Assembly (NCBI GenBank): GCA_020284085.1
Contig: JACEVL010000162.1
Span: 7,501-71,500, forward strand
From: Aporrectodea caliginosa
Lineage: Eukaryota > Annelida > Clitellata > Crassiclitellata > Lumbricidae
Length of the DNA stretch: 64,000 nt
Reading direction: 5' to 3'
The notes below the pieces were generated by a model. That model was not told where the DNA came from. It searched no databases and saw only the letters and a list, made by a program, of their open reading frames with translations. Position numbers and translations under genes: made by a program. Position 1 is the first letter of the stretch. Each line of letters starts with the position of its first letter. Positions 165 to 51,640 of the stretch are shown piece after piece.

Positions 165-1977
165 ATGTATCATCCTCTGCTGATCGCGGTTATTTATCTG
201 ATTGGCGCCACCTGTGCGTCAAACATTGCGGATGGTTTGTACGACGATCGCAATGAAACCCATCTACATGCACAGTCACAACAAGAATTTGCACAAGGTA
301 ATATTCCAACTGAATGTTGTCTCTCAATCGTTAGTGGATGCATGGCCCATAACTGTTATTTTTAGATTCAGCATTTGGAAGGGGTGGGGTAAAGATAGTG
401 AATACAATTATGTTCTAAATGCTTAGTTCGCATGCGAAAGATTTAAACAGAGATTTTCATTGTATCCCTTCTCAATTTACGTTTTGTGTTAATTGTAGAA
501 ACTAATTATTAGTTTCGCGCCTCAGTTTAACCGATCTTCCGCGTGAAATAAGCGTAATAAATTAACCAAAAGATTTGAATCAAATGAACGCTTATGGTAC
601 AAGTGACAAAGTATATACTGAAACAACTAATTTCAAGCACCGAACAACTTTTAAAATCTGTTTCTTACCCTTCTGAAGAGACCCGATGTTTTTAAAGACC
701 TGCTAATTTTCATGTTCTGCATATCTCACTTTAATATACGGTTTTCAACAGCTCCATTCATTCTAAAATTATCACTTTTCAAAACATTTGTGGCTGAGGT
801 ATCACGAGTGGCTGTGTGTAATAATGTCACATATCCATGTATAAGTAGTAACCTCGAAGCGGCGCTATATAAATCTTCGTAATGATCGAACGAAAAAATG
901 AATAATTATCGATACGAAAATATATTATTAATAATCAGTGTATAATGATAAGCAGTATTCCTAATGGGGCCTGTGTTGAACCACAGAGGAATTTAATATC
1001 AACCATAAATTCGATGGTAAAATTCTGGAAATATCAAGTAGGCCTACTGTTTCGACTCTATGTAAAATTATTAAAGAACTATGAAATTTTGCTTCGTTGC
1101 AGTCTATGAAAATTTCTTGAAGACGTTGGATGCTCCTTTTTGTTACATTCGCGCTAATACAAGATTGAAAAACTATATTTTCATTATTTGTCGGCAAGAT
1201 TCGTACAAATCAATCCGCGTCTATGAAGATACGACTCCATTTGATCTTCTCATGATAATATCATTGGAAGAAATTACTAATTTTCCATACGCCTTAGCAT
1301 CAAGTGCCGCATCGGAATGTCTCTACGTTCCAGATTTCAATTCCTCGTGCATCTGGAAGATCCATTTGGAGGATCATCGTTTAACGAAATGGCTCTGCAC
1401 TCTAGGACGAATAAGGGACACTACCGTTTCCACAGATGACCAAGTGGTCGTTCTGCAACGTAATAAAACATCTGATATTTTGGAAACTTTTGTGGAAATC
1501 TATGGGCCAGACGCTGCTTTCATTCGCACAATCTACCTGCCAACTGATATCTATTACCCAATCAAGGCTATCCTAAAGCCCAATGGACATTTCATAATCG
1601 CTTATAAAGCTGACAACGAAAAAATGCTTGCTATGTTGATACGTTTAGTTACAATAAATGGACAGATAATCGATCAAGTCTATGTCATCGGTGCTTATTT
1701 GGAAACTGCTGCGGGTAAGCAAATATGTTGGTCACTTCAATCTGACGCTGCTCGAGTTGATGACCTTGACTTAAAGTATCTTTCTGAATGTACTATTACT
1801 TCTTATAATAAAAACCACCTGATGATGATGGAAGGACATATTATTCCAATGTTGGTAATGATTTACAAAGACGGACGACGTAGAATGGGCGATGTAATTG
1901 TGTTGGACGTGCAACTCGCATTTGGTATATATTCGTCTACACACAATCTTGTTATTCATGAGTATTTTCGGCCCTGA
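165..1977 (+). CDS. Secreted beta-propeller-like protein, copy A (two exons)
   Basis: Exon 1 is 165-297 and exon 2 is 1103-1977, giving 335 residues. Exon 1 opens with a canonical signal peptide (MYHPLLIAVI, then a small-residue stretch ending CAS). The intron has a GT donor at 298 and an acceptor ending TTCGTTGCAG at 1102, and is phase 1 on both sides. Exon 2 has motifs typical of NHL-like propellers: ECLYVPDF, SCIWKI, RDTTVSTDDQVVVL, VEIYGPDAAFIRTIYLP, AILKPNGHFIIA and LVTINGQI. Six or more cysteines recur between copies, fitting an extracellular protein. An NSS glycosylation sequon is present. AATAAA lies at 2106. The intron includes a retroposon 3' end (about 840-880, GGCGCTATATAAAT) also present in copy B, so it predates the duplication. 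The propeller assignment comes from motif pattern only; the ligand or function is unknown. Confidence 0.75.
1041..1046. other. TA-targeted GGCCTA microinsertion in the copy A intron
   Basis: Copy A reads CAAGTA-GGCCTA-CTGTTTCG, whereas copy B at about 24622 reads CAAGTACCTTTTCG and copy D at about 39148 reads CAAATACCGTTT. The simplest alignment needs one 6-bp insertion that turns TA into TAGGCCTA. Confidence 0.6.
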
Positions 1978-2105
1978 AATGGACAAGAGATCATAGTCAT
2001 TGTGCAAGAGCTATAATTTTCAACCCTCTGGCAAGTTAATGTCATGCGATAACATTATAAACTGCTCAACAGTGCTCATCATTTGCTACTTAATGTGGAC
2101 AGCGC

Positions 2106-2111
2106 AATAAA
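2106..2111 (+). promoter_or_regulatory. Polyadenylation signal of copy A
   Basis: AATAAA lies about 130 bp after the copy A stop codon, the only canonical signal close behind it. The 3' flank (about 1980-2150) aligns with the 3' flank of copy D (about 40103-40230). Confidence 0.45.
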
Positions 2112-3794: not shown

Positions 3795-3975
3795 ACGTCA
3801 CTTTATATTAGACTCTAAGATGGCGACAAACGAATCGCAGTTAAATACGAAGTGAAACCATCGTCGCCTCAGTGATGGACTGAGAGATCAAATCCAGCAA
3901 TTATCTAACCGGTCATTGAAGGAACTATTCACACACGCGCATAAAAAAGGCCTGTGCACGATCTCTTTTATTGGT

Positions 3976-4459: not shown

Positions 4460-4479
4460 TAGCATTATATGTTTTAGTT

Positions 4480-5600: not shown

Positions 5601-6190
5601 TCCCTCTCCCTTCTTCTTTGTGCTTCTGGGACTTTAACCGTATCTTAGCAACTTTCTGTGTCTAATCTAGCACCTGTTAGCGTCCGGTATTTTCTACTTT
5701 CTACGTATAAGTAACTTTACTACGGTATTATGCAGCAATTAATCAATAATTCAGACACTTAGATACTGTTCAATAGCCTATGTCTTCTTATTGTCTACTG
5801 TATAATGTATTTTGATCTTGGTTACTTCGTAGGTGCACATTTCTAAGATTATGATCACGCCTAGTCTATAGAACTTAACATTTGCTGTTCCAAAATATTA
5901 GGCCTAGGTTACTGGTTCAAAGCTCTTCCGTAAAACGTTGAGTCGCCCAAGCTCAAGAGGACGTCCTTACTCCTTATACCAGCGTGAAACACCTGACGAC
6001 GTTTAATTGATGAGGAAATTAGTTGTTCTGAGAGACGTCTTCACTGACAAACAGAAGACGGATGATCGAAGAATAATCTAAAGACGATCGAAAGATGATC
6101 GAAGAATGATGAACAGCGAGGAATTATTCCCATCGACGCGGAATAAGTGATGAAAGGACATGAACTAATTTAATGAGGATGGAATAATCA
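5601..6190. other. Non-coding stretch without recognisable features
   Basis: AT-rich unique-looking DNA with one TAGGCCTA octamer near 5902. No open frame or repeat boundary is supported here. Confidence 0.4.
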
Positions 6191-6530: not shown

Positions 6531-7098
6531 TTCATGCATACATAATATGGGCATGCATACATGCATGCTATACAATACAATCATATACGCAAAAAGCATA
6601 CATATACACACACAATCATGTTAAACTAAACTTAAATTAAACTTTTAAATTTTGATAAGTAAATCTAATTACACGTAAAGGAGCAGCGTTCTGTCTGCTC
6701 CTCATGATTTATTAAACGAAAATGCAATACAGGACAGTACAATACATACATTATGATACATGCAGACATGCGTAAATACATACACCCATACATACGTGCT
6801 TACATACAAGCGTACATGCATAGGCCTACATAAATACATAAACAAACACATAATCTAGGCATATTACAAATTGAAATACATTATAATTATATAAAAACGC
6901 AATTTTGAGTCGTGTATCTAGAATGGTACAGTGGAAAGGTAGAATGTTAAATTGCGAGTCGACCAGAATGCCAGTATGTAGGTCAGCCCACGAGAGAGGA
7001 GATCTTAGTTATGGATCCATGACCGGAATGGTAGATCCATATCTACCAGTTGTCACATGAGGATCTGGTCTTAGCAGAAATTCCCTTTAATACATTAA

Positions 7099-7926
7099 CA
7101 TGGGCGCCCGCAGGATTTTTTGCAGGGGGTCAGAAATGCAAAAATGTCTTGTGGACCACTACTAGGGCCTATAATAGGCTACTATACTATATAAAACTGT
7201 TTCATCAGTGCAAACAAAGTAATTGATAGTTCCGTCAAAATCAATATTCTCAACCAGTTCTCTTTCGATCAATAATGCCAGTCCAGACAGGCGTTCAGTT
7301 GTCATATGGTGTATCACAAGTAATTTGTAATTATTTTCAATCTGCTAAAACTTATTTTTGCACTTGCTGATGTAATCGTAATCGTAATCGTAATCTCCAA
7401 ACTTCTAAAGCGCCACTCGAAAGCCAAGCGCAGGGCACCAGCTTATTCACGAGCGCTGGAATAGCACGAAGAGTGAGATATATTTTATAAAATACTGACA
7501 GATTGCGGAGTCCTGGTGCCATGTGTTTTTCTGTAAAAAATACCGCTTTTCCGCGGATTTGCCTTTAGGCCCAGTATTTTCAGCTATTATGATACAATTT
7601 TTAATTATATCCAGTTTATCACAATTTAAAGCTAATTTAATTTATTTCAAGAATGTGATTGCTTTCATACCTACCAAATAGTCTTCGTTTCGTAGCAGTT
7701 CAATTCAATATGCGGATCGCGAATCCGAGAGCCACTTGTTGAGAACATTCAATTGATGCAATAGGCGTAAACTTATACGCCTATCCAATACGCTGTGTGA
7801 TTTGTCTTCAGATGCCGTCTGGCCAGACTCGAGGGCCTCTGTATATCCAGGGGTTCGTGCCCGACTTCACTAGAAATTTTATATGAACTTATACTACAAA
7901 CTCTTGGGAGCATGAGAGGCCGAAAT

Positions 7927-7969: not shown

Positions 7970-8708
7970 ATATAGTTTGATGATAGATGTGTTTAAGCTG
8001 CCTGCCTGTTGCTGGCTTGGCTATGTTTGGAAGAGGTATCACATATCGAGGATGACTTCGACTGTTCATGCGTTTTAGCCTACATGTACATCCCGAGAGT
8101 GAGACACACAGAGACTGAGGGTCAAATTAAGGGTCATGCTAATCTTCCATGACCTGTCGATGCTGTTCGTCTCTCTATCCCCTTACTCCTTACTTAATCC
8201 CTAATCCCTATACTTACATACGTTAAGAGAGACATAACAGAAATACTTGGGGAAGTACAGTTGAACGTAGACTAGTAGCACACTCAATCGTGATGAGCAT
8301 TGTTTATTGGGGTTAAGAACTTAGAACTTAGTCCTTCCCGTGCAGGTCTGCAAATCGGGCATTGGGGTTAAGATAAGAACTAAATCTCGGCCATGCCAGG
8401 TCCGTTCTGGCAGACCAGTGGCAGCATACGATGACGGACGGGTCTGGTTTTAAGGGGTGCCGGAACACAACCAGGAGCCTGGCAGGAGGGGAACGGGGGA
8501 GGGCGGTTGGCTTGCAGGCTTATTGGTAAATCCGCCACTGAATATTAGTATAAGCTTAGTAACTTATTAGTAGGCCTAAGCAGTCTGAAACTAAAGCTAG
8601 TAATTACTAAGTGATTTGAACAGAATTTTATTTTAAGCTTCATTTGCATGATTAAACTTGTCGGATTTTTATATTTAAATTCCTTGACCTATGCTGCGGG
8701 CGCCCATG
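7099..8708. mobile_element. hAT-like element with CATGGGCGCCCGCAG ends, 1,610 bp
   Basis: The 15-bp terminal inverted repeats (CATGGGCGCCCGCAG) match perfectly. The left target copy is TACATTAA (7091-7098). The right copy reads TA-GGCCTA-CATTAA (8709-8722), the same 8 bp interrupted by GGCCTA. No transposase frame is visible. The interior has a (TA)n tract at 7923-7972 and a ~70-bp block near 7400 shared with about 58340-58410 (GCGCAGGG...CCAGCTTATTCACGAGC). Related ends occur at 33068-34207 and near 29478. Confidence 0.8.
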
Positions 8709-8710
8709 TA

Positions 8711-8716
8711 GGCCTA
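8711..8716. other. GGCCTA microinsertion inside a target-site duplication
   Basis: The right target-site copy of the preceding element should read TACATTAA; it reads TA, GGCCTA, CATTAA. The two copies were identical at the time of transposition, so the 6 bp arrived later. Confidence 0.65.
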
Positions 8717-9565: not shown

Positions 9566-9709
9566 CCGATTAATTTGTAGAAAAATGTGCATTAATCGAG
9601 GACCACTGTTTATTGCCTTTGAAAAAAGGAGGGCGTGAAAATATAACATAGGCTACGCTGTATAGTCGGGTCAAATTCAATCTACCAAAAAACCACCTAA
9701 CCCTAAAAA

Positions 9710-10335
9710 AAATTGATACAAAAGGTTTCGCAACGGAATCTGGTACCATTTGGCATGCCTATAAACACAGTAAAAGTCTCCTCTATTCTGACCATCAAAA
9801 CAGGGTCATTTTCAAGATGGCGTCCAAGATGGCTGCCTAGAGCTAAACTAGTTGTCTATATCTCAGCCTTGAAAATTGATACAAAAGCTTTCTCAACAGA
9901 ATCTGGTGCCATTTGTAATGCTTGTTGACATAGTAAAAGCCTCCTTTAATCTCACCACCACAAAAGGGTCATTTTCAAGATGGCGTCCAAGATGGCTGCC
10001 TGGAATTAAACTTGTCTATAACTTAGCCTATTAAATTGATACAAAGGTTTTCTCAACGGAATCTGGTACCATCTGGCATGCCTGTAGACATAGTAAAAGT
10101 CTCCTTTAATATAACCATTGGAAAATGGTCATTTTTAAGACGGCGTCCAAGATGGCTGCCTGGAACTGAAATTATCTATATCTCAGCCTTAAAATGATAC
10201 AAAAGTTTTCTCAACGTAATCTGGCACCATTTGGCATGCCTATCAATATGATAAAAATCTCCTCTTTTCTGGCCATCGGAACAGGGTCATTTTCAAGATG
10301 GCCTCCAATATGGCTGTCTGGAACTAAAACCATCT
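9710..10335. repeat. Left satellite arm, about four ~160-bp units
   Basis: The ATTGATACAAA landmark recurs near 9712, 9874, 10034 and (slightly altered) 10194. Units are diverged but keep the same order of blocks, and appear in reverse complement at 14056-15060. Confidence 0.85.
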
Positions 10336-15114: not shown

Positions 15115-17875
15115 GAGCCGTATTTATGGGACACGCGTAAGTAACACCGGGCATAGCACCTACGCCGAGAATAACTATTCACAGAATAAAACTTAGTCTT
15201 GGTCGGTATTCATGAAACCCGCGTAGACAGTGGATTAGTTCTTCTGGGCGCAAACTGGTCTGACGCTGGGTTTTCCCAATATTTGAGTGGTTATCGTTGA
15301 TCGCGCATGCGCAAATCTGCATATACCGACGAAAAGTAAAGTAAGCAAGCAGGTCTAGCCTTTATTATCCCACTAGGCCACTACCAAACGGGCAGCATTT
15401 GCATCGAAATAGAATGTAAAATAACAGATAAAAGTAAAAATAATGAATAAAAATAATAGTGAGGAGGTCGCAACGTCGAATTTCACTGTTTTGAGGACGT
15501 GAGAACAAAGTAAACAACTAAAAATTGAAAGACGGCGCTAAACCAAAACGAATCTTATTTAATGTAGGCCTAAATGTAAAATTAAGAGTGTTTTTTGTTA
15601 GAGTAAATATGAGAGCGAACGTTAGCAGCAAATGTACAGTAAGAAAGTGACACAAGGAAGAGTGAAAAGATTTTGAAGTTTACGGCGAAGTTCGGACAGA
15701 TCACGGCAGATCATGGCCTAACGGTAAGACGCGGCACTTCGAATGCAACATCGTCAGACATCTCGCCAAATTTTAACATTTAGTGACGGTGAAATTAAAG
15801 GCAATGTAAAGTTCGCCGTCCGCGAAGAGACCAGTCAATTACAGAATCTCTTAAACACTTATTGACGTCCAAAACGTCGTCGAATGCAACGAATAACGAC
15901 GGCGCCATTTTGTTTATCGCCTTTAAGCTGGGAATAGAGGACTTACTCCTACCTCAGACTCGGAGTAGCCTTATTTTCAGTGTAGATCGCTACGCGTGTC
16001 TCATGAATATCGACTTAATCCGCTACGCCGGTGTCATGATATAAAGTCTCCCCCGAAACAGAGTCTCCCCTGGCTGAAATAATGTCTCCCCCGGAGACTC
16101 TGTATCGAAACAAAGTCTCCCCCATTGAAACAGAATCTCCCCGTCTACGATGCAAAGTCTCCCTCTACTAAAAAAATCGCCCACTCTATAGTTTAGCTGC
16201 TTTCCTATATAATTTTAAATGTGATTTAATATGTACATTTTCGTAAAAAATTCTTATGTGTTTACTATTTGAATTGGACATGTAAAACATGAAATGAAAT
16301 CAGAAAATTATTAAATAAATGTTTTATAAGAGTAAATTTAGAACACCACTAGGATGTCGGACGCTTATGTCAATAAAACGCAATGAATAGGCCTAGATTA
16401 CACACATTGTTTGTTATAGCCTAATTAAGGAAATGGCTCTGACTACAAGTAGGCATTTTACTGGTGCTAGTTTCTGAAACGATTCTGTGAACAGTAATCC
16501 CTATCCCATTCAATAATTAATGCTGTAGTCCTTTTGCCAGCTAACGCTAATTAGCTTCCCGCTGATTCTTTTAGGGTTAGATTACTTAGATCTACCACTG
16601 AAACTGTGTTGGATATCGGTCGTTCAATATTATTAGCGTCAGATATAATATCAGGCCAGCTTATTAGCTAGACAAGGAGTCTGAAACAATATATTGGAAT
16701 AACTATACCTGTACTGACTTCCTGATACGAGCTAGCACGTGGCTTCTATGCGATTCTTGATGCAGATTAGGCCTAACCTTCAACTGATATTAATCAACTG
16801 ATATGAGCTTGCACGTGATTTTCTGTGAATGTTTTGATGCGGAATAGGCCTACCATTCTTCGTCCATTGATCTGGTTAACATAATTATTCGTTGCTTATT
16901 ATTGTTAGCATTCACAGAACCACTGAATAAGCGAAGCTAAATCAAACCTATTTAGTGTCGATAGGCCAATATCAATTAAAGAAAATAAAGCATTGTAGTC
17001 CGTGACGCCAGTACAGGCTTGAGATGAAGACTACTGAAGCAAATTTTGTTGAACCATTGAATTATTATGCTTGCCCTTGCTTCACATTGGCGTTAAAGAT
17101 AGAATATATAGAAATATTTTTCATCAATGAAACAACTATTCTCATGGATTCAGCTTCTACTTACTGGTAGGCCTACAATTTTTGTCATCAATCCAGCGTC
17201 CATATTAAATTGACCATACGAAATAATTTACCAACTTAAAGTATTGGATTAGCCACAAAGGCTTTAGAATTAATTGACCAGATAAACACCCAACATCCTA
17301 CAAATAAGCGAATTTATCCATGGTAGGCCTACCCTTGGTATGGAACAACATCCCTAAAATTCCCTATCACCATTCGTCGATTGCCTAACTTGAAATTATT
17401 TATGAAGACTAGGGCCTATGCGTAGGCTTACTCGTCTAATAAATGCTTAATCATTTAAATCTCTATGTTGCTGACACTTAGTTAAAATTATTTTTAATAC
17501 TCCGTTATGCTTATTATTTGCTAAAATTAATAAATATGGACTATTAGTTCCTTAAAAATTGCAACTATCACAATAAGTGCATAATTGTTGCTTAAAACTG
17601 GGAACAATGAATTGTTTGAAATGAAAATTGAAATTGAAATAAAATCTCCCCGGGGGATGAAACATTCTCTCCCACCGGAGACTTTGTTTCAGAATATAGT
17701 CTCCGGGAGGCGCATTTATTCTGAAATAGATCCGCCGGGGGAGAATCTGTTTCAAAATAGAGTCTCCGGGGGGAGACTTTTAGGGGGAGACTCTGTCACG
17801 CGACACCGGCATAGTCGAGATTTAAGCTAGGAATAAGAGTTACGCGTGTCCCAAGAATATGGATACGGAATTTTG
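15115..17875. mobile_element. TIR element with GGGACACGCGTAA ends
   Basis: The left end reads GAGCCGTATTTATGGGACAC, and the right end is the complement of a sequence with TTCCGTATC...TTGGGACACGCGTAAC. The homologous unit at 46004-46035 reads GAAAAGACCTGAAGTTTTAAGCCAAG uninterrupted, so it is the unoccupied site. No coding sequence is recognised; another inverted-repeat element is nested at 16041-17797. Boundaries are good to a few bases. Confidence 0.6.
16041..17797. mobile_element. Nested element with arrays of AGTCTCCCCC motifs
   Basis: The left ~130 bp contains at least five copies of (A)RAGTCTCCCCC spaced ~20-30 bp. The right ~160 bp contains the complementary GGGGGAGACT motifs alternating with TTTCARAATA. 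Inverted blocks GCCGGTGTC and GACACCGGC lie just outside. The ~1.5-kb interior is AT-rich with several TAGGCCTA octamers and no coding potential. Confidence 0.55.
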
Positions 17876-20899: not shown

Positions 20900-21470
20900 T
20901 GTATGTATGTATGTATGTATGTATGAATCTATGCATGCATGTATGTATGTATGTATGTATGAATCTATGCATGTATGTATGCATGCATGTATGTATGTAT
21001 GGATGATGATGCAAACACCAAAACACTTATCTTTATATGAGAGTAAGTTCTCTAAACCAGTGCTGTATAGAAAGAGTTGGGGCCCATATTCAGTATACTT
21101 GTGCCTTAGTTCAGACAAAGAACAGAAAATATTCCAAAAATGACCATTTTCCTTGCAAACAAGCGAAGAAAATTATCGTGGAAGGGAATGCCGGCCAGAA
21201 CCACACTGGCACTTGGAACCAAAACCTTGAAACCTATCGTTCGCTCAGAATGTTCAGGGTTTCACCAGTTTTTCATCAGCACTATCTTCTTCGCTCTGGT
21301 GTGCATTACATGTATGTATGAATCTATGCATGTATGTACATACATACATTACATGTATGTATGAATCTATGCATGTATGTATGTATACATGCATGTATGT
21401 ATACATGTAGGCTATGTATGTATGTATGTATGTATGCATGCATGCATGTATGTATGGATGGATGATGATG
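20900..21470. repeat. ATGT-rich tracts with a local duplication
   Basis: ATGT repeats at 20900-21005 and 21310-21455 are each followed by GATGATGATGCAAA and CACTTATCTTTATATGAGAG-like sequence (21003-21060, 21460-21520), so a ~150-bp unit is duplicated around a 240-bp spacer. A TAGGCTA interrupts the second tract near 21408. Confidence 0.7.
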
Positions 21471-29998: not shown

Positions 29999-30335
29999 TC
30001 AAGGCTTGGAGCTTCCTAAAGTGGCCCTACCTAGAGTCTTCTTGTTTCGATCATCTCCCCAACCGGACTTGTTCTGACAGTTTCTGCATTGAGGATATGC
30101 GCAGTATATGACAGTTCCAAGAGACGTCACATGCCTATTAGGACCCACTTTACATTTTGAATAAAGTCTTACGACACAGTAATTATCATCGATTGATGTC
30201 ACTTGTGGCGCTACAACGTTGCAAGGACAATGAATATATATATATATGTGTTATATAGCCTATATATATATGTGTTATAAAGAAAACTGAGGTCGCTAAC
30301 ATTTCCTATACCCATTGCTTTCTTTGACGGCTAGC
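29999..30335. other. Non-coding DNA with TA-rich and retroposon-end sequence
   Basis: Contains TA repeats around 30235-30275 and the retroposon 3' block AAAACTGAGGTCGCTAACATT (30283-30335), also found at 36262. The tail of that retroposon resumes at 31940 after the TTAA-flanked insertion. Confidence 0.5.
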
Positions 30336-33067: not shown

Positions 33068-34207
33068 CATGGGCGTCCGCAGGAATTTTTCCAGGGGGTC
33101 GCAAACTTTTCAGTAGTTGTCACAGAAACTAAATATAGGCCTGGTGTCGAAAGCAACCGATCACTCAACATGCTACGCTCGCTCCCTAGGCTCTGGCTAC
33201 CTCTCGATCTTCTGGCGCGGATCCCAACATGCGAAACAATTCATAGACATTCATTGTCAAAAACTATTATGATAATATTAAATTTTATATGACTGAAATC
33301 TGACCTTATTCTTGAAATAATAATTGCAATCGTCTGGGTTCTTGTCCAAATTGAGTTGTCAGTCTATCTATGAATTCGTCTTTGTATGATGAGGTTACAT
33401 CGAAATAAATTCAGACAACAAAGACCAGGTAAGACACCTGATAAACGGTCGTCACTGTCAGTCAGTTCCAACGAAATTGTCCAGAAGTGTTCCTATTTTC
33501 CGTTCCTTGGACACTGCCCGACTGACTCACAAAGCGTACCGTTAGTAGTAGGCCTAGAAGTTTCAGTTTAACGACCCGTGCGACAAAAAAGATCAATAGA
33601 TTCGCATTCCTCCTTCATCCAGGCTTGGGACTGGTTCCGAAGCTAGCGGGTTATGTTTAAAACGTCTGGCAGGATCCTGTGTTAGCTGGCATCTAACTTC
33701 TAAGGGAAATGATGATTATTTAGTCAGAGACTGTGGCACCAGCCAGTGTCAATTATATATTATGTTTATATAGATTTGTGTGTCTATATATATAGGCCTA
33801 TATGACGTCCTGACTACGCGGTTCACCGGCCGAACCTGTTATCTCGGACCGATCGGCTAAACACAAAAAAAGAGCCGCTGGTAAAGGGTATATACGATAC
33901 CAATTAGCCGATACGACTGAAAGCATTTTGCCGTCTGGAGGTTGCCAATATGAATTTCCATATTACCAAGAGAGAACTCTATACGTTAAATTTAAAATAT
34001 ACGCCTAAGCAAAGATAGGCCTATAATATAGGTCCAAATTGGGTTAATTTTAAATAATTAATTAGGGAATTTAGTGTTTTTCCGATAATAACGTTGAAAA
34101 TCGTGTTGTAGTAATCACAATAACCAAAAAATCAAAATTTCTCTGCAACTACACGCAAAATCCAGGGGGCGCATATGCGCCCCTTGCGCCCCCTGCGGAC
34201 GCCCATG
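33068..34207. mobile_element. hAT-like element in the copy C intron, 1,140 bp
   Basis: 16-bp perfect inverted ends CATGGGCGTCCGCAGG, and a perfect 8-bp duplication GTTGTTTC (33060-33067, 34208-34215). Copy D has the single unoccupied GTTGTTTC at 37274-37281. Same family as 7099-8708. No transposase found. Confidence 0.92.
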
Positions 34208-34592: not shown

Positions 34593-36086
34593 CCGTTAGT
34601 GAAGAGACACTAATTACTTGTGAATTTAAATATAATCTGTATGAGTTGACGATTAAAATCAATATTAATCATAAGTTGTCAATGTCTGAATCATCATCAT
34701 TAGAGCAAAAGGTTACTGAGTAAACCACGATCATTTCACAATTATTGCAGCGCCAATCTGAACAGGCTAGGCTAACCTCCTACCTCATGCAACAGGCTCA
34801 GCAGGCGGAGATTAAAGTTACTACGGCTGAAATTCATCCAGTTGAGGGTTCGAACCCTAAAGTGTCTGAACACTTCGCTAAGCCCTTAGTGGAAGCCGCG
34901 GTAAGGACGTAGAGAACCAGTCAGAACTGGCCTTGTTGATGAGTAGTGGTCATTTGCCGCGACGGAGCGCTCGCTTACGCGCCAAATCTGCAGTACGGTA
35001 CATTATGAATTCCCGCCCTTTTCTAATATAAGAAAAAGCGGTTTGCCCCAACTGTCAGAAGAGAGTTCGGTCCTTGTGCGCGGGAAATCGGGGGTTCCTT
35101 AACAGGAGCGCTACTGGACGCAAGAGGGCGGGCAGGACGCGACATCAAGTGCATGTATGTTTGTATGTTGTATGATTGCAATTGTATTTATGTATGTAGG
35201 CTATGTTTGTGTGTTTGCTTGAATGCATGTATTTATGTATGTAGGCTATGTATGTATGTATGTTTATACGTATGTATGTGTGCATGCATGATTGTATGAA
35301 TAAATGCATGTACTGTACGTATATATGATCGTGTGTATGTATATATATGTATGTACGGACTCATAATTATAAGTATGCATGCATGTATATAGGTATTCGT
35401 CTATGTATGCACGCATGCGTGACTGTATGAGCTTATGTGTATGTGCCTGGACCGGGTCTTGCGCTCTGCAGCGCGTCTAATGGGGCCAATTCCTAAATTT
35501 GGTCATGTATCCAGCCAAATCCTGGACATTTTACACTGGCTCCTTATCCCAGACTACCTGCGAGAGCTTTGTTGCCCCTCGAGTATTCAAGGTCGCTGCA
35601 GAGCGGAGGGAGCGAAGCGTGCTCTTAGTCCCCTTTGCACGAACTGCAACTATGCAGAATCCTGACTTTTCTGTGGTGGGACCAGTGGTCCGGAAGGGCT
35701 CCCCCAGGAACTACGCCTGCTCCCTGGGATTCTTACTAAAGCATTCTTTATTAGACTCAAAACTGTACTTTTCGCCATGCTGGAGTCTGGAGCTCCTCTG
35801 AGTAGTCCTCTTTTGAAAGGGCGCTATATAAATTCTTATCCTTCTCTTTCCCCTTCTCCTGTTCTTCTCCTTCCTTCTTCTAGGTCGTCGTACAACATTC
35901 ATTCGTAAATCCGATATTATATCAACGACACGTGTTTCATTGTTTCAACTGCGACTTAGTTACAACAGAGTCTTTAATTGTTTTAGGAGGCACTGTCAAA
36001 TTAATATCGAAATCCTCCGATGTTCAAATGTCGCAGTTGCAAATTGATCCCAAAATTTATAGTCCAATATGATGTAATCTTAGATG

Positions 36087-37128: not shown

Positions 37129-40102
37129 ATGCATCATCCAGTACTGATTGCGTTGATTTCTGTGGCTGCCGCCATCTGTACGTCAAACATTGCTAATGGT
37201 TTGGACGACGATCAAACTGAAGCTCAACTACAACATAACCAAGACTTTACTCCAGGTAGGATTCCAACTGAGTGTTGTTTCTTAAACGTTAGTATATTCA
37301 TAGGCCCCTAAATGTCAGTTTAAGAATCAGTATTTGTTGGTGGTGCAAGGTAGTGAATAAATTATGCACAAATCTCAATAAGAACTTAATATTATTTAGT
37401 ACGAGCTTGACATTCTCAAAATGTCCACTTGTCAAAGAGTAAACAATTATAGGCGAGCCGAGAAATGTCGGAGGAAATTGGTATGCCCTCTATTCACCTA
37501 ATAGTCCACTGTTTCGCCTCTGTTGATGCATTATAGGCATCATATTGTGAGATGTGTTTGAGCGCGCCCACCGTGCGCGGACTGTGCTGAGAATGCCTTG
37601 CCTATTATAGCAAGACGACGCACAATAAAAATTAATAATGACGGCATCATCGATTGATGCTTGATGATTGCATGGTGTTGATCAATAAAATTATTCTGAA
37701 ATAATAATAAGGAAATTAATAATAATAATTTGATGATAGTGGTGAAACCTGGCACGAGGCTAATTTCTCAGATAAATTATGAATTTTCTATATTCTTACC
37801 TAATTTTTTTTCTTGAAGGAGCATTTCTACCTCGGGTTACAAATATATAATAGATTACAAACTTCAGGACACCGTAAAGAAACAATACCTCTTTTAATCT
37901 CTTCAGTAGCAATTCAGCATTTCAATGCCGTTGACTTTGGTAGCACTCTTGCTCAATCTTGTGTTTATTTAAACCTTAGAATATAACAGCCTCAAATAAA
38001 CAAATAAACTTATGCTGGTTTGTTAAGAAAACCTCTTATATTTACGACTGTTTATGTAGACCTTTGAAATGATAATGTTGGTAATAATAATAATGGCGAT
38101 AATATTAACACAATTTATCGTATAAAATGTTATGAATGTTAATAAAAGTTTTTTTTTTATCAAATTGACAAGTCCTTATAGTTATTATTATGACAGTGTT
38201 TCTCACCAATGTTTTATTTGGTCTAACTATTCTTAACGTTCAATTGCCAGACCCGTTTGTGAATATTTTAACGTATGTGTTTAAGAATGCATCTGAATAG
38301 CGTGCAGTCATTCAACCGCCGCGTCATGTTTTACTGACAGACCCGTTTGTGAATATTTCAACGTATGTGTTTAAGAATGCATCTGAATAGCATGTAGTCA
38401 TTCAACCGCCGCGTCATTTTTTAGATCCATTTGTACCGACTGCTCAAGCCAGAGCTCGGTCCACACGCCTCTGGAATATAATTACTCTATGTATGAAAGG
38501 CTTTAACAGAGATTTCCATTGTCTCTCTTCACAATGTTGCTTTTGTGGCAACACAGTACAGTACAGTATTGGTCTAACGGTCCATGCATAATACGCTGTA
38601 TTCTGCGCCGTTTCCGGAAATAACCCTGGACAAGTTGTATGTAAAAACTTGTTTCGCGTTTCCGATTTAGGGCTTACTGACCTAGCGCGTGTAATGAATA
38701 AATAAATAGATTATAAATCAAATGAAAACCTTTAGTCGAAATGAAAACGTATATCATGGAACACATGTTTCTAATTTTAAACCTATGGCCAACTTTTCAA
38801 ATCTTTCTATTACCTTCAAGAAGTCTGATGCTTGAAAAGAACTGCTAATATTTCATGATCGGCATGTCTCACGTTAATGTACAGCTATAACATTAGCAGC
38901 TATTTATTTAATTCTAAATTATCAGCTTATAGAATATTAGTAGTTTGCAATAGTGTGAGTGACTGTAAGTGATGATGCTAGGTACCTATCTAATAGTATC
39001 TGTAATAAATTGGAAATATACTACTAATGAGTAATAACACATTATCGATTTAAGCCTATTAATATTATTAATGATAAGCAGCGATAGAACCTATGTATTG
39101 GATCGTTTGAATATTAACCATAAGTCTGTGGTAACATCCCGAAAATATCAAATACCGTTTAGGCTGTGTTTATAGTGGCGATGTTAAGAACATTTTCTTT
39201 GTTGCAGTCTATGTAAATTTCTTGAAGACTTTGGATGCTCCCTATTGTGCCTTTTCTGGTATTACAAGACTGAAAGACTACATTTTCATTATGTGTGATC
39301 TCAACGAGTCCATCCGCAATTCCGCATCTATCAGGATACGCCTCCATTCGATCTTCTGATGCTTATTCCGTTGGAAGGACTTCATGAGTTAAGATTCTTT
39401 GCTTCACGTGGCGAATCGAAATATCTCTATGTCAGCAAAATGTTTTCAGAGTGCATCTGGAAGATTAACGTAGAAGATCATCAGGTAACGAACTGGCTCT
39501 GCAATGTAACGCTTCTAAAGGGCGTTACGGTATCCGCTGATGGACAAGTAGTACTTCTGCGACAGGATGAAACGTCTCAGAGACGAGTTGTGGAAATCTA
39601 TGGGTCAGACGCTGTTTTCGATCGCAGAATCTACCTTTCAAATGACATCTATAAACCATTCGAGGCTATTTTAAAACCCGATGGACAATTCATAATCGCT
39701 CATGAACTATACCGCACTAGGCCTATGCGTCTCGGTTATGATGTAATGCACGCTGCTAGTACGGTTATAAGTCTAGTTACAATAAATGGACAAGTAATCA
39801 ATCAAGTCTTTGTCATCGGTGCTTTTTTAGAAATTGCTGTGAACACGAAGATATGTTGGTCACTTAAATCTGACGCTGCTCAAGTTAATAGTGTTGACAT
39901 AAAGAATCGTTCTGAATGTATTTTTACTCCGATTTGTACCCCTTTCCTAATGGTCGATGAATATCTTATTAAAATTATGATAGCTAAGTACTATGATGGA
40001 TATGGAAGAATCCGGAGAGTAACTGTATTGGACATACAAGTAGCTTTTGGAATACATTCGTCTCGAAACAATCTTGTTACTCATGAATATCTCTGCCACT
40101 GA
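37129..40102 (+). pseudogene. Propeller gene copy D, frameshifted exon 2
   Basis: Exon 1 is 37129-37255 (MHHPVLIALISVAAAICTS, donor CCAG/GTAGG) and exon 2 is 39208-40102 (acceptor TTTGTTGCAG). Exon 2 starts VYVNFLKTLDAPYC but contains an 8-bp local duplication-like insertion near 39313-39328 (ATCCGCAATTCCGCA), which brings an early stop at 39357. Subtracting 8 bp leaves a multiple of three. After it, the frame from 39359 runs intact to 40102 with ECIWKINVEDHQVTNWLC, VEIYGSDAVFDRRIYLS and AILKPDGQFIIAHE. The long intact remainder suggests a recent lesion or an assembly error. Confidence 0.65.
37760..39200. repeat. Copy D intron with a 90-bp tandem duplication
   Basis: Non-coding. CAGACCCGTTTGTGAATATT...CAACCGCCGCGTCAT occurs twice in tandem (38248-38337 and 38338-38418) with few differences. 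The 3' part of the intron aligns with the introns of copies A and B. Confidence 0.7.
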
Positions 40103-41160
40103 AATTGAACGGAGCTCATAGTCATTGCGCAGAAATCTAATTGTCCACCTTCTGGCGATTGTCATACAATGAACTGCACATCGTTGCATGGACAGCATTA
40201 TAAACGACTTGACATTTTCCGTTTCTATTGTTTAAATATGAATTTAGCTTTGCACATATTCATAGCTATTACTCGCTCTATCCTAAGACTGATTTTAACC
40301 AGGTACATTCATGCCTGTCAGCTTGTTTATTAGGTCGGCAATGCTAATACCACCTATGCAGGACTAACATGCACACATGTTAGTGAGTACGTTAAGTATT
40401 TGCGTATTTATGTCATACTATGAAGTGCACATCATTGTATCATAACAAGGATGTTGAGTAAATGCAACATAACAAATGGCTTGACATTTTGTGTTTCTAT
40501 TGTTTAAATGTGAATTTAGCACTGCACATATTACAAAGCGCATACTCAGGAAATTTAAGCATGAGATCAGCGCAAGTTTACTGCGACACCGTTGTTCTTG
40601 ATCAGGAACTTAACCTTCTCTGAACACCTAAAAGTCCTAAATCTTTATGCTGTGCTTGTTTCTTCAATTGCGGCAATTGCGAGTTATTTCCCGTTCACTT
40701 TCACCTAATGCTACACTTGCTCTTTGTGAACTAATGTTTTGCATATATAATGAGTACAGGTGTTCCTTATGTTGATATATATATAATGTGTATTCGATTG
40801 TTAAGCGTTTTAGTCTTAGGCCTTAGTTGCGCTGTCGGCTCGTGGGCGCTTGGCCTAAAGTAGCCTAAATATTGGCTGACGATAGATTCTCTACACGTGT
40901 AGTTAGCGCGCCAAACTTAGAAACTGCTGATGACAGTGAATTTGAACAATACAGTGTAGTAGTTGGTTTAATGCAGTAGAGTGCTGTATGTTAGAAGTTA
41001 CAGTCGAGCTGTATTGATAAGAACTTTGATTGTACGTTTGAAATAACTGTGTTTGAAGAAAGGAGAAACATTCAAAGAACTGTGTCAATTTAATTTTTAA
41101 ACAGTTAGAAGTCGTTGAGCAATTTATATGTAGAGATAAGGAAAGTTCTTGAGGTAGGTC
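40103..41160. other. 3' flank of copy D
   Basis: Aligns with the 3' flank of copy A at the start. A ~80-bp segment (CTTGACATTTT...GTTTCTATTGTTTAAAT) is duplicated at about 40205 and 40480. From 40880 it overlaps the dispersed repeat shared with 4480-4800. No gene seen. Confidence 0.45.
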
Positions 41161-43030: not shown

Positions 43031-43591
43031 GAAAGTGTGTGTATGCATGTATTTCTGCTTGTATATGTATATATTTGTGCATTTATGCTTGAATGCATGT
43101 AGATTGCCTGAACTTGTCTCTACGTAAAACATGTATACATCGATGCCATGCCAATGAAGAATGTCCGATGACCTCAATATAAAATGTTAGCAGTTTCTTG
43201 TGCGCATCAGTAGCTTATATGAATCCGAGTGATTAGCGCTTGATCCGCAATCCCTCTTTCTATTCAAGCCGCATAAATTCATCGGCCATCTTTTCTCAGC
43301 ACGGCCGTGTTTTTATCGGCACGTTACTCTGCATTAAACTTTAAGATGGCGGCAAACGAATCTTAGTTAAATCGGCCAGCAATCTTCCTCGCCTGAGTGA
43401 AGGACTGAGGGATACAATCCGGCAACTATATGACCAGTCATTGAAAGAACTATTCACGCGCGCGCATAAATAAAAGACTGCACGAACTCTTTGCACACAA
43501 AGGCCTATGTCCAATTGTCCATAAACATATAGGCCCTAATTGTATTCATATAGGCCTACGCACATATATAAATATATATAATTAGATACAT

Positions 43592-44376
43592 TAGGGTGGA
43601 GCGAAAAAATCGAAAATTGGAAATTCAAATAATACAATATACCGTTGAAAAGAGCTATTCAAACTGAATAAAATTATATACTAATTTTTGCCGTAGTTTC
43701 TGTCCGTGTCAGAACAACAATAAGTAGGGGCCTAGGTTTTAGAATGAGTAGGTGTTGTATTTTTATGCTTCGACATTTCGTAATTATTCACGATCTAAGC
43801 CTGAAAATAGTTAAACAAAATTGGGAATCAACTTAAATGACAACAGAATCAATGAAAAATTGCAAAAAAACTATACTAAAACTGTCAACAAAATTAAAAC
43901 AAAATGTTTTACTGTTTACAATCCTCATCCCAATATACTGTCAGAAAGGCGGTCCAGAGCTGAAGAGAATGACATACTATGGGTTTGAATATCTCGAAGG
44001 ATAAAAAGTTACAGGTGTTTAACCATTTTCAGGCTTAGAGACATGTCGCGAACCAGAGGAAATGGTACGAAGTTAATCACTTCTACAAATATGGGCATAT
44101 TTTAAAAATTAGTATATCCTTTTATTCAGTTTGAATAGCTCTTTTCAACGGTATATTGTATTATAGTTAATTAGTTTACAATTAGAATATTTTACAAGAA
44201 AACCTGCAATTTTCTCGAAAAAACGCTATTTTCGTAACTTTGGCCCTCTGGTGGGGCGGAAGACATTAATATTTTTAAAAATTTCTGAACAGTTTTTTAC
44301 CCCATACCATTAGGTAACTTTTGGTTGCTATTACTTTTTGAATTTCCAATTTTCGTTTTTTTCACTCTACCCTAAT
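43592..44376. mobile_element. Long inverted-repeat element, TTAGGGTGGAGCGAAAAAA
   Basis: The left end TTAGGGTGGAGCGAAAAAAT and the complement of the right end TTAGGGTAGAGTGAAAAAAA match over ~40 bp, ending in AAATTGGAAATTC. A second inverted block, CAATATACCGTTGAAAAGAG, lies at 43639 and (complement) at 44140. The right arm carries ~160 bp of extra sequence. No coding region. Confidence 0.8.
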
Positions 44377-44433
44377 ATAGGCCTACATAAATATATAGGC
44401 CTATTGCCACAATATGTATGGTATGTAGACTGA

Positions 44434-44492
44434 CAGGACCTCGTAGTTAGCCTATAGCCTATATGAATGATTCATATAACTATGAGGTCCTG
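44434..44492. repeat. Short palindrome with one arm interrupted
   Basis: CAGGACCTC...TATGAATGATTCATATAACTATGAGGTCCTG is a hairpin. The left arm carries an extra GCCTATAGCCTA (44450-44461) between TA and TATG that the right arm lacks. Confidence 0.75.
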
Positions 44493-45304: not shown

Positions 45305-46150
45305 TAGCGTCTCATGATGAAAGCTGGGACCACTCGACGAAATTAATAAAGCTGGCGCCATCTGTTCGTTGCTAAGGCAGATGATGCATTTGATTGTCAG
45401 GTTCGCTTGCAAGGAAGACGATGACAAGAGAACAGAAAATCCATGTCACGACAAACGATCTATTAAGATATACTAAAGTGAATTGGTTTCTGACATTCAG
45501 ATTTCATGCAGTCCTCATGTAACATTGCGGTCCAAAAGGAATTAGTAGGCCTGGTCCTGTAATTCTTTTGTAGTTAAAGTATTTTATTAAAACATAAGAT
45601 CCCGCTGGTAAGTTTATATGGCGCAGTTAGCTGGTAAGAGCGTAGGCCTACGTGCATTGCACGACCGTGCATTGCGGATACCGGTTCGCATACCGATGGT
45701 GGCTTATTTCAGAGAGTGCAATCCCGGGCTAACACCGGTCGTAGCCTACGTTAAGGGAGACCTTGAATGGTGTGGCACCTATTCAAATTGCCAATGGTGG
45801 TGAAGGATCTCACCCGATCAACTCATTGGATCGAAGTCACGCGGTCGTTGTTGAAAAACGTGTAGTCTACATTTATGTGTGATGATGTCAACATTATAAA
45901 CAATAACCCAAATCAATTAGGGGCTTGTTAAAGGAAACCGTTGTTTATTGCTTTAAAAAACCCAAGGTTTAAAAATATAACATAGTTTGTTGAGGATCTC
46001 GAAAAGACCTGAAGTTTTAAGCCAAGCTGAAAATGTTCCAAATCAACCAGTAGGCCTACGTACTTGTATGCCATAAAGTTATCATAAATTTAGAATTTTT
46101 GCTGTGGTACATTGACTGAAACATCGGACATAGGGCCTAGTCAGTGGTAT
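45305..46150 (+). repeat. ~850-bp composite repeat unit with tRNA-derived SINE (reference copy)
   Basis: 45305-45560 is the ~300-bp repeat body. 45619-45830 is the best-preserved SINE: TGGCGCAGTTAGCTGG (A-box-like), GGTTCGCATACC (B-box-like), then GTGGTGAAGGATCTCACCCG. The tail to 46150 aligns in order with segments at 9570-9667, 15085-15114 and 17876-18005, showing this is the compact form of the 8.8-18 kb region. Confidence 0.7.
45645..45650. other. GGCCTA microinsertion in the SINE
   Basis: Copy 3 reads GTAAGAGCGTA-GGCCTA-CGTGCATTGCAC, whereas copy 2 at about 26945 reads GTAAGAACGTACGTCTACTGCAC. Confidence 0.6.
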
Positions 46151-46174: not shown

Positions 46175-46350
46175 TGTACGCACGTATGTATTCATGTATG
46201 CCTGTGTATGTATATAAAAATGCATGTATGTATGTATGTATGTATGTATGTATGCATGCATGTACGCCTGTATTCATGTATGTATTAATGTATGCGTGTA
46301 TATGAGTGTAGGCCCCTATGCATGTATGTATGTATGCAAGTATCTTTGAA
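46175..46350. repeat. ATGT-rich simple sequence
   Basis: Degenerate (ATGT)n tract; His/Ile/Tyr/Thr frames on the minus strand are artefacts. Confidence 0.9.
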
Positions 46351-46612: not shown

Positions 46613-46707
46613 TTCCACGTCATTAGTTCACCTTCCCATAGTCCCAGTTCCTACCAGGCCAATAGGCTTGCAACTTAGCATTTAGTAATGATACTATAAT
46701 AGGCTGA

Positions 46708-47460: not shown

Positions 47461-48190
47461 GAACTACAATTTTGCAAGTTTAAATCACTGAGAAACAGTT
47501 TACAGTAAAACCTAGTAGCCTAGTGAGTGATAACCATCTCAATACGATATTTGTGTAGCAAAATGAAATTCTGATACTGTGTAGCCAGAACAATGCATTG
47601 TCCTTCCGTAATTGTAGTTTAAACAACAGCATTAAAATGAAATACTTAAGAAATTTTTCTTCAAACCTAGGGAGTGTGAAAATTTAGCTAATTTCAACGT
47701 ATTTCTTTCCTGTACTCAACCGTATATTACAGTTATAACCATCTGTCATGACCGACAACAAAGTAGTTTAGCTCGCCCTAGAATCTCTAATAGCGCTATT
47801 CACTAGCAGTTTTCGAACTGTTGTAGACGAATTATTTTAGCAACAAACCCCTCAATGGGCGGCGGTGGTTCTCGCACACTTCATAATTTCCTTGTCGAAG
47901 ATTGTATACAACTTGAGCCTCAACATTGTCCGAACAATACAAGCTACAGGTGGCACGTGAGGAATAATCCAACTGCATAGCATAACTAACAGTTCATTGC
48001 GAAATGTGGGACTGTTTTGTCCTTGTAGCCGTTGGAAAAATCTAATAACAAAACTCAAAATCTCCGATATTCAGAAGGAATGACTCTGATCCATAAACGC
48101 AGATACACTTTGGATATATTTCTAAGGCGATCAGGTACTACCATTCAGTGCAATAAACGCAATGCTTTCTGCACGTGACGGCAACCATTC
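47461..48190. other. Non-coding stretch
   Basis: AT-rich, no supported gene or repeat boundary. It may be the 3' flank of the zinc-finger locus. Confidence 0.35.
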
Positions 48191-48260
48191 AGCCAAAGTT
48201 CATCATATTATAATTGGAGTAAAATTAACAAAAGTAGGCCTACAGTTGGAACAAATGAAT

Positions 48261-50178: not shown

Positions 50179-50189
50179 CTTCAGATCTT

Positions 50190-51640
50190 CAACTCAGAAA
50201 AACAAATAGCACATGAGTAACAGTTTGTACCGCGTGTCTACGCCACAGTTTGATCTGCCAGAAGTTAAGCAGTTCAACAAGTGAGGACTTTTCTAACTGA
50301 CCTATCTAATCTAACGTAATGACTTCTATTGCCCTGTTATTACCATATCAGAGACATCAGTTCTTGTCACTTCGAGTAAAACCAAAAACAAAAACTCATA
50401 ATCCGAAGAAAATGCCAGGTCGAAATCTGATAGATCAGAGAAACCTGAAGCCAGGTTGTGGTTGGTAAGCAGGACAAAAGAGATGAGTCTTGAGCTTGGA
50501 ACTCAATGACACCAAAGAACTGACAGATCAAACCGAATTGGGCAGCGGATTTCAATAGCTTCGGACCATCGACCAGAAATGCACGAGCACCCTACGCTGT
50601 TCAGAGGCGAGGCACATTAAATGTCACACAGCGTCCATTGATAAAGTGCTATATCTGTTTGTATTCGGAGTGAACATGAAACCCATATAAGTCCGTTGGT
50701 GAAAATGTATAATTACAGGCATATATCCTCATTAAAGACGAACAGAAAAGAAAAGGAGAAAAAGATCATGAATCACGATATTGTATTTGTGATCCAAGCA
50801 ACTTACGAATGTTGAGCTCTCATGATGACTGCTAATTCACTGCCTGCAGAACTTTTAGGAAGAAGAACTAGTCTAAACCCAAAAGGTGACTTTAAACTGT
50901 GCAGTTGAAAAGAAGTACCAAACAATAGTCATTCTTATACTGCGATCAAAAGGGCGATTCTTAATTGCCCCCAACGAATTGTGGAACGAGAAATGAAAAC
51001 AAGTAGATTGATTCCATGGTATCAAATAACGTCATGACGAGAGGATTCTCCTTTGCTAAATGAACTCCTACCAATTTCAAACTATGGCTATCACCGTTAA
51101 CAAGTGAAACTCAATTCTAAACTTCTGATAGTATTTTTTGATAACTATTTAGCGACTTTTCCAGCATTATTGTCAGGCCCTTCCGGCGCCCCTGGGCAGA
51201 TAGCGCCCGGGGCGCCACAGGTGGTTTATGGCTGTTCTTTCCAGCGACAGCGTAGGCCTACAATCAAGTAGGCCTACCTGTCCAATACCTGAGTCCATCA
51301 TGGTGTGAACTGGGGAGAAACTCATCCAATACAGGCCTATTTCCTTCCAAAAGATGCTTGGATATTTGATTTTCAGAAAGCGAAAGCAAAAATGTGAGGT
51401 TTACGGTCAAAACCAGACGAGCGCTGCTCTGGTTAGAGATGCGATGATTCTTGCAAAAATGCCACGGAATCTAAGATGAGTTAAAACCAATAAAAGCAAT
51501 AAGTTCGTAAGGGAAGTCTCGAAAATCGTCGACAAGCTGTCTGCATAAAACAGAACATTTACAGTTTTCATTAAACCAATATCGCCGTTGACCCAAAGAA
51601 TTTGCATCGAAAATTGTATATCATGAGGGCTATCGTGAGT
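50190..51640. other. Non-coding stretch upstream of the zinc-finger locus
   Basis: No gene is supported. A GC-rich scrap at 51176-51225 (CCTTCCGGCGCCCCTGGGC) resembles a hAT-type end. Two TAGGCCTA octamers lie 16 bp apart at 51255 and 51271. Confidence 0.4.

Follow-up and report, generated by a model that had tools for sequence, protein, structure and literature searches.

Transposon footprints are usually observed singly, in assays. For Tc1/mariner elements they are described as 2-4 bp long and for ZB as 0-3 bp (PMC7913693), and the breaks made at Tc1 are reported to carry non-complementary 2-nt 3' overhangs (PMC4490562). Similarly, footprints of 0-4 bp are given for Passer of the pogo group (PMC9976928), and the pogo superfamily is summarized as having a TA target in most families, elements of 1.2-5.2 kb and transposases of 300-977 aa (PMC7386202).

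In the window, the whole 64-kb stretch of DNA analysed here, the exact octamer TAGGCCTA occurs 30 times against 0.56-0.61 expected from order-1 and order-2 composition, which bears out the estimate in the earlier note of about 30 copies where about one was expected. The span given there, 1039 to 51276, starts correctly at the first copy (1039), but a further copy begins at 56889. Apart from the copies discussed individually below, motif counting places the octamer at 5899-5906, 6821-6828, 8571-8578, 15565-15572, 16388-16395, 16768-16775, 16845-16852, 17324-17331, 20240-20247, 27868-27875, 28402-28409, 31612-31619, 33549-33556, 33793-33800, 34016-34023, 43551-43558, 44396-44403, 46051-46058, 51253-51260, 51269-51276 and 56889-56896, as well as at 44378-44385, where it adjoins a hAT-like element end. 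In 261.5 kb of the same contig there are 83 copies against 1.8 expected. The over-representation is genome-wide: the 1.098-Gb genome holds 292,633 copies, compared with 7,583 of the letter-reversed control word ATCCGGAT, which is an imperfectly matched control because it contains CpG. The short forms TAGGCTA and TAGCCTA, which had likewise been said to recur, number 52 and 52 in 272 kb against 11.3 and 11.1 expected, and by extrapolation the total number of scars is roughly half a million. In the window, where about 1 in 4 or 5 of the TAGGCTA short forms is expected by chance, motif counting finds TAGGCTA at 2393-2399, 7175-7181, 9649-9655, 21408-21414, 22157-22163, 34768-34774, 54978-54984 and 55038-55044, and TAGCCTA at 5774-5780, 8076-8082, 10024-10030, 16417-16423, 30256-30262, 40861-40867, 44448-44454, 44455-44461, 45742-45748, 47516-47522 and 62238-62244. 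The word TAGTA is mildly over-represented (346 versus 278 expected). An Rfam search of the window returned no match.

Where sites can be scored against related copies, TAGGCCTA and its short forms appear mostly to behave as 6- or 5-letter insertions at TA. A check of the kind suggested in the earlier note, scoring paralog gaps at scar words against other words, gave an empty TA opposite 12 of the 20 classified sites with a paralog (2 octamer, 10 heptamer) and opposite 21 of 695 control words (14/420 TA-N4-TA, 7/275 TA-N3-TA), in a tally that allows one site in two classes and leaves out ambiguous sites (18 octamer, 18 heptamer, 585 control). The Fisher p value for scars versus controls is 1e-12 (688 controls, 7 empty non-TA cases excluded). 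Among octamer sites with paralogs the alignment is ambiguous at 18 of 22, and the clearest insertion is that at C161:80788 relative to two copies of 88-90% identity. Gap tallies over 272 kb are topped by a rotation, AGGCCT, among 6-nt gaps (6; next 2) and by AGCCT among 5-nt gaps (8; next 7). A search for insertions of 2-10 nt, whatever their sequence, at a single TA of a SINE gave 47 matches, among them GGCTA twice, GCCTA twice, and GGCCTA and GGTCTA once each. Among window heptamers, the aligned copy has an empty TA opposite TAGGCTA at 35197-35203 and 35242-35248, both inside (ATGT)n, as does the paralog opposite 57115-57121 and both of two paralogs opposite TAGCCTA at 58629-58635. A TA on both sides of the insert, against a single TA at the empty site, is the arrangement of an excision footprint of Tc1/mariner type.

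The claim of discrete insertions at TA is supported at the sites that can be scored; the individual cases named for it are mixed. In the intron of copy A (octamer 1039-1046), the insertion claimed at 1041-1046 is an exact 6-nt gap relative to copy D and two gaps totalling 6 nt relative to copy B. In the ORF of copy B (octamer 25232-25239), that at 25234-25239 is a single 6-nt gap relative to D, with poor alignment immediately upstream, but is substitution-like, with no gap, relative to A. For the GGCCCA at 25136-25141, the alignments to A and to D each show a 6-nt difference divided between two gaps. Two further cases are compatible with insertion: the octamer within a SINE (45643-45650; claimed at 45645 relative to about 26950), where the aligner places the gap elsewhere, and the octamer in what may be, from the sequence, the right-hand copy of a hAT target-site duplication (8709-8716; claimed at 8711-8716), where ATGTACAT at 8084 faces CATGTA-GGCCTA-CATT at 8705. 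The case proposed at 46055 relative to 17890 was not confirmed, no alignment there reaching the score shown. In addition, blastn gives a 6-nt gap for 48235-48242 relative to C161:145281-145852. The octamer at 24487-24494 falls within a longer gap relative to copy A, that in the ORF of copy D (39718-39725) aligns ambiguously to its paralog, and the sole paralog of 17168-17175 has TAGGCAAG, which is substitution-like.

The inserts form a length series. In 287 kb, words TA-G(m)C(n)-TA were counted 105 times in the (2,2) form against 2.8 expected, 54 and 52 times as (2,1) and (1,2) against 12, 12 and 5 times as (3,2) and (2,3) against 0.6, and 3 and 2 times as (2,4) and (4,2) against 0.1, whereas (1,1), (3,1), (1,3), (2,0) and (0,2) stay at background; the (1,1) excess is -1.5, compared with about 16 extra predicted were the two sides independent. 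The series follows the rule that the G or the C run on one side is two. Long forms in the window, from motif search, are TAGGGCCTA (3,2) at 7163-7171, 17410-17418 and 46131-46139, TAGGCCCTA (2,3) at 27179-27187 and 43530-43538, TAGGGGCCTA (4,2) at 43725-43734 and TAGGCCCCTA (2,4) at 37301-37310 and 46309-46318. A microsatellite trap returned inserts with three, four and five C's 37, 13 and 1 times in 100 of 136 matches listed (93 distinct), and the (2,5)/(5,2) words may be a single event within an inverted repeat. The base preceding TA at 97 octamers, both sides pooled, is A.36, G.37, T.20 and C.08, compared with A.32, G.18, T.32 and C.18 at every TA; a purine precedes 73% of scars.

One might suppose that selection and substitution have spread TAGGCCTA as a functional word, either a binding site or, like the cyanobacterial HIP1, a highly iterated palindrome. 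It is a perfect palindrome with very many copies, and most of its one-mismatch neighbours are near background, as such a word would have it; the alignments to empty sites, the length series and the presence of TAGGCCTA-type inserts in a SINE and in microsatellites nevertheless make this explanation extremely improbable. The neighbours number 60 against 25.4 expected for transitions and 53 against 47.0 for transversions, and they give a scar age equivalent to about 4.5% per site; this figure is only rough because three control palindromes likewise show a transition excess (95 versus 49.5, 55 versus 43.7 and 85 versus 54.3).

Based on the results presented above, the scars are probably excision footprints of TA-targeting, GG-ended transposons of the Tc1/mariner/pogo group, with a GGGGAGACCGGGG family as the predicted source, possibly together with related families. 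The Tc1/mariner-type source suggested in the earlier note is in keeping with the discrete insertions, the TA duplication and the targeting of TA; the GGC termini given to it there are not supported. GGC ends would not predict a series reaching GGCCCCC, which GG ends with 2-nt overhangs would fit, and GGCC, taken there for a longer variant, is the main product, beside GGCCC, GGCCCC and GGCCCCC. Neither the inserts with four and five C's nor the rule of two agrees with a model of 3-nt GGC overhangs and 2-nt tip pairing, which was dropped. In the favoured mechanism, transposase cleavage would fall 2 nt within either element end, and the two resulting TA-GG 3' overhangs could not pair; during end joining the GG of one overhang would be kept and would prime synthesis of C's opposite the other. 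The usual copy would be two C's, yielding TAGGCCTA, and sometimes one, yielding TAGGCTA or TAGCCTA; three to five C's could arise by slippage on the G template. Alternatively, no transposon would be involved, and a repair activity or polymerase might insert sequence of GGCC type where TA is broken; template-free or telomerase-like G addition to TA-3' ends is one example. The homopolymer series to C5 does look polymerase-like, and residents of the GGGGAGACCGGGG family are few, but the TA target with palindromic neighbours and the run of precisely two G's or C's at one flank suggest a defined, transposase-like cut, and this route is judged highly unlikely. We know of no insertion of GGCC type at TA sites by repair alone.

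Inverted-repeat scans of 272 kb for TAGGC...GCCTA found no recurring family; what they yielded were inverted duplications of some length and pairings attributable to chance. Microsatellites served as two further traps, GGC + A/G (100 of 292 matches listed) and GGC + C/T then C/G (100 of 136 listed); among the matches listed these also revealed no recurring TA-GGC family and returned microsatellite variants, more footprints and single tails, which would still allow a rare GGC-ended family. As candidate parents, TAGGGTGGAGTG inverted repeats were rejected as hAT elements with 8-bp duplications, and five Tc1/mariner families by their ends: L032 (CAGTACAAACGG, one end seen), L042 (CGAGGGTTG), L043 (YAGGGTGTCC), L044 (TAGGGTGACTCG) and L045 (CARGGTGGTCC). 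The TAGGGTGG and TAGGGAATG families show the hAT duplication nTnnnnAn; among five hAT copies with such duplications, four are identical and one matches at 7 of 8 positions.

The GGGGAGACCGGGG family, by comparison, has ends that fit. Ends within 3 mismatches of TAGGGGAGACCGGGGCTGGTTG number 341 + 367 = 708 genome-wide (controls 1 and 0). Terminal inverted repeats are seen in 13 facing pairs, paired TAGGGGAGACCGGGG copies of 1,371-1,406 bp that use 26 of the 100 ends listed; the other 74 have no partner among the ends listed. The scar GG..CC matches the first bases of the resident ends GGGG...CCCC. The 11 readable flanks differ beyond the TA, which is part of the search pattern by design, and the base before it is A5 G5 T1 C0, a purine at 10 of 11 in this small sample. 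One of the 11, each flank read singly, fits the hAT form nTnnnnAn. A duplication of 8 bp is at odds with the C25 pair but would account for the far end of C113, where A, G and T are all excluded at the eighth position. All 13 pairs contain the same coding remnant, whose peptide is lysine-rich and gave no match in a Pfam search. It weakly resembles the tail of pogo-type (DDE_1) transposases (E 7e-4): six of its seven weakest matches are open frames carrying DDE_1, which score alike and may all be copies of one family. Longer frames resemble it better (e.g. C84, C613, C118) and are absent from the DDE_1 matches listed. None of the DDE_1 matches (150 of 349 scored) lies at any GGGGAGACCGGGG-family end listed, and no autonomous partner was found, the tail-like remnant being read within 401 bases of the 1.38-kb element.

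We infer that this family made the scars; the predicted source would thus have TA-GGGGAGACCGGGG ends, a length of about 1.38 kb and the apparent tail of a pogo-type transposase gene, with related GG-ended families possibly contributing. Its resident ends are few beside about 280,000 excess octamers, and a TA-flanked, GGG-ended element is present at C161:133854-137881; both would suit an origin from another, perhaps extinct, GG- or GGC-ended TA-targeting family to which the GGGGAGACCGGGG family is unrelated. This is a less likely alternative, though one to be taken seriously, as against it the GGGGAGACCGGGG residents have fitting ends, contain a transposase-like remnant and, in the few flanks readable, seem to share the base preference before TA, and GGC ends leave GGCCCC and GGCCCCC unexplained. 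Under the preferred origin from the GGGGAGACCGGGG family, scars would have accumulated through many jumps while resident copies stayed few. A stronger version is rather doubtful: that a GG-ended pogo-type transposon is purged by continual germline excision, with scars outnumbering residents by hundreds to one and about 1% of TA sites scarred. Were it true, it would represent an IES-like, excision-driven coexistence with transposons in an animal, and each scar would be a datable, near-neutral marker.

The scars add bases within genes and repeats, and they thereby account for many small insertions to which a probable cause can be assigned. If they are footprints, this gigabase genome would be a closely spaced archive of earlier transposition in which few short words are as strongly over-represented, and excision would become countable, datable and mappable in terms of jump frequency, local hopping and the end-joining polymerase used. 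The contrast between the extrapolated number of scars and some hundreds of GGGGAGACCGGGG residents is surprising. No account of a comparable genome-wide footprint record was found among the matches listed in searches of open PubMed Central papers.

Among known systems, the hAT elements of the same genome have ends TAGGG...CCCTA, and TAGG+CCTA resembles their two tips joined; however, hAT duplications are 8-bp nTnnnnAn, whereas the scars duplicate TA alone. As in HIP1, a single palindromic octamer is strongly over-represented, but TAGGCCTA appears to enter as an insertion at TA and occurs together with longer and shorter variants. In common with the pogo superfamily (Passer, Tigger, Fot), DDE_1 transposases occur in the present genome; unlike pogo elements, the GGGGAGACCGGGG family is known only by its tail-like remnant. 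As in the footprints of Tc1, Sleeping Beauty and ZB, TA is duplicated with 2-4 element-end bases between. In contrast to those three, the scars here imply GG ends, have two on one side, and number hundreds of thousands per genome.

The octamer TAGGCCTA, of the TA-GGCC-TA type, occurs 30 times in the window against 0.56-0.61 expected from order-1 and order-2 composition, which bears out the excess of about 30 to one claimed in the earlier note. Genome-wide (1.098 Gb, 4,544 contigs), it was counted 292,633 times, or once per 3.75 kb, and ~280,000 copies are left once the composition background is removed. In the 272 kb analysed, with the satellite C161:189000-221500 of the same contig masked, there are 97 copies versus 2.7 expected, and among TA-NNNN-TA words GGCC is outnumbered only by the simple repeats ATAA, TTAT and TATA. 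The heptamers TAGGCTA and TAGCCTA, also noticed earlier as recurrent, are the most deviant TA-NNN-TA words of this set (52 each versus ~11), the next being TTA (90 versus 50). Only the octamer was counted directly across the genome; if the heptamer excess in 287 kb is scaled up as the octamer count scales, some 230,000 further copies result, and thus, by extrapolation, about half a million of these scars in total.

The proposal that the words are 6-bp and 5-bp insertions at TA was upheld when gaps were compared with those at other words. Tallying gap words by length in the self-aligned 272 kb, the AGGCCT rotation leads the 6-nt gaps (6 positions, runner-up 2) and AGCCT the 5-nt gaps (8, runner-up 7). 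Sites with an aligned copy were then scored by whether the flanks match a bare TA or a filled site, where one site may enter more than one class: the 22 octamer sites gave empty TA 2, empty non-TA 1, shared 2, one substitution 1 and unclear 18; the 28 heptamer sites empty TA 10, shared 2, substituted 1 and 1, and unclear 18; and 8 longer forms empty 0, shared 2, substituted 1 and unclear 8. The remaining TA-N4-TA and TA-N3-TA words, treated identically, gave 14 empty TA and 4 empty non-TA at 620 sites, and 7 and 3 at 421. An empty TA therefore faces 12 of the 20 classified octamer and heptamer sites versus 21 of 695 controls (Fisher p ~1e-12 against 688 controls, the 7 empty non-TA cases being omitted). 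At the cleanest site, C161:80788, TAGGCCTA stands against TA in two copies of 88-90% identity.

Two whole-genome traps agree with this result. An abundant SINE was screened at a single TA for any insertion of 2-10 nt, and the 47 copies with one yielded GGCTA and GCCTA twice each, GGCCTA and GGTCTA once each, and TAGGCC in a different register in one further copy. Seven of the 47 carry GGCCAATAA / TAGGCCAATAA at the same TA, apparently a single scar event duplicated along with the SINE, and the remainder are mainly AT-rich slippage or short duplications. In (GTAT)n microsatellites, GTATG-TA-GG-C(n)-TA was found with n=3 in 37, n=4 in 13 and n=5 in 1 of 100 listed matches out of 136 (34, 10 and 1 among the 93 distinct tails of the matches listed). 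Among the matches listed for a second microsatellite trap, GTATG-TA-GG[AG], several contigs carry TAGG-(filler)-TTG-TAGGCCTA, e.g., TAGGGCTTTGTAGGCCTA, which is either a longer filler footprint or a microsatellite variant.

The composition of the scars follows a rule. When TA-G(m)C(n)-TA words with m and n up to 6 were tallied in 287 kb, those in excess were (2,2) 105, (2,1) 54, (1,2) 52, (3,2) 12, (2,3) 5, (2,4) 3 and (4,2) 2, and no excess was seen for (1,1), (3,1), (1,3), (2,0) or (0,2). No similar pattern is seen in the same 287 kb for the mirrored C(m)G(n) words (the biggest, C3G1, 5 versus 1.6); TAGTA, or (1,0), is in mild excess (346 versus 278) and does not fit the rule. If the two sides were independent, ~16 extra (1,1) and 6 extra (3,1)/(1,3) words would be predicted, versus excesses of -1.5 and -1.7; thus the count is two on one side and ranges from one to about five on the opposite side. 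We infer from these observed counts, which it fits, that two non-complementary GG 3' overhangs would be joined, one GG serving as primer and the other as slippery template.

The scars are probably excision footprints of TA-targeting, GG-ended transposons, with the TAGGGGAGACCGGGG family of TA-flanked elements of ~1.38 kb as the predicted source. Transposons of the Tc1/mariner/pogo group are expected to favour TA in a palindromic context. At the 97 octamers, both sides pooled, the base 5' of TA is A/G in 73% and C in 8% (50% and 18% for all TA), and the next base outward is A/T in 73% versus 65%. The GGC termini suggested earlier found no counterpart: no recurring TA-GGC...GCC-TA family turned up in the 272 kb or among the matches listed for the two microsatellite traps (100 of 292 and 100 of 136). 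Four of the 100 listed matches (292 in total) of the GTATG-TA-GG[AG] trap start with TAGGGGAGACCGGGG or a near-match. This end has 341 and 367 genome matches with at most 3 mismatches (control 1 and 0); 13 facing pairs, 1,371-1,406 bp long, account for 26 of 100 listed ends, and no partner is listed for the other 74, which puts the copy number anywhere between ~350 and 700. A 401-base internal piece of one copy is open in one frame end to end. The encoded peptide, a coding remnant enclosed by all 13 pairs, matches nothing in Pfam; some of its relatives end in a weak PHD-like finger. Six open frames, 670-773 aa in length, match the remnant weakly (E 7e-4) and carry a DDE_1 (pogo-type) domain ~370 bases upstream of the match. 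We regard the family as a pogo-type deletion derivative and the likely origin of the scars.

Its flanks carry A/G before TA in 10 of 11 readable cases and fit nTnnnnAn in 1 of 11, against 5 of 5 hAT duplications of this genome; pair C25 contradicts an 8-bp duplication, whereas pair C113 is as one would predict. Four hAT-like elements without evident transposase, ending in TAGGGTGGAGTG or TAGGGAATG, lie at window 43592-44374 (no 8-bp duplication) and at C161:394-869, C161:175007-177171 and L029:3821-5099 (identical 8-bp duplications). Many listed TAGGGGAGACCGGGG ends lack a listed partner and the six DDE_1 frames, which score alike, may be copies of one family, which slightly weakens the case for this source; that a different GG- or GGC-ended TA-targeting family left the scars, with the TAGGGGAGACCGGGG family unrelated, is nevertheless unlikely. 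A possible second GG-ended TA element, 4,028 bp at C161:133854-137881 (L016), has inverted ends TA-GGGTATGCTCAATCC (19/20 matching) with no matching 8-bp repeat beside them, and it encloses a LINE-like frame for reverse transcriptase. A DDE_3 search gave twelve equally scoring matches; the ten loci compared (L032-L041) are 99.8-100% alike over ~3 kb, and the Tc1-like element there, one end of which is CAGTACAAACGGCC, was thus recently active.

Along C161, the five scar forms occupy 179 of 17,154 TA sites outside the satellite, background included, and 6 of 2,463 within it (short units around CTCTTTTCAATAA, ~30 kb, C161:190000-221000), as expected if scars build up with age; the satellite TA context is also less favoured. 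In the first 189 kb, scars are more clustered in 5-kb bins than the null average (dispersion 1.98 versus a null mean of 1.08, maximum 2.23; TA-weighted null, 2,000 replicates), and 22 gaps are shorter than 400 bases (null mean 11.8, maximum 23). The densest bin, C161:110-115 kb, is the same for octamers and heptamers, but no rank correlation between the two is seen over all bins (Spearman 0.09, p 0.6). A dense cluster of scars spans C161:110000-125000 (L013-L015). Abutting scars (TAGGCCTATAGCCTA at C161:110718 and 110966; TAGCCTATAGGCCTA near 120330), together with the clustering, are compatible with local hopping. The contig, whose bases 7501-71500 form the window, also holds long inverted duplications at C161:149942-153354 and C161:165361-169277 (main arms ~92-97% alike) and three divergent copies, A, B and D, of a single gene (window 1081-1977, 24661-25644 and 39359-40102), of which B has just seven database relatives, none named.

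Among the entries listed by searches of open PubMed Central papers on the octamer and on footprints across a genome, none described such a record. Tc1/mariner elements are documented to leave 2-4 bp footprints (PMC7913693), with 2-nt overhangs at Tc1 breaks (PMC4490562), and Passer of the pogo group leaves 0-4 bp (PMC9976928).
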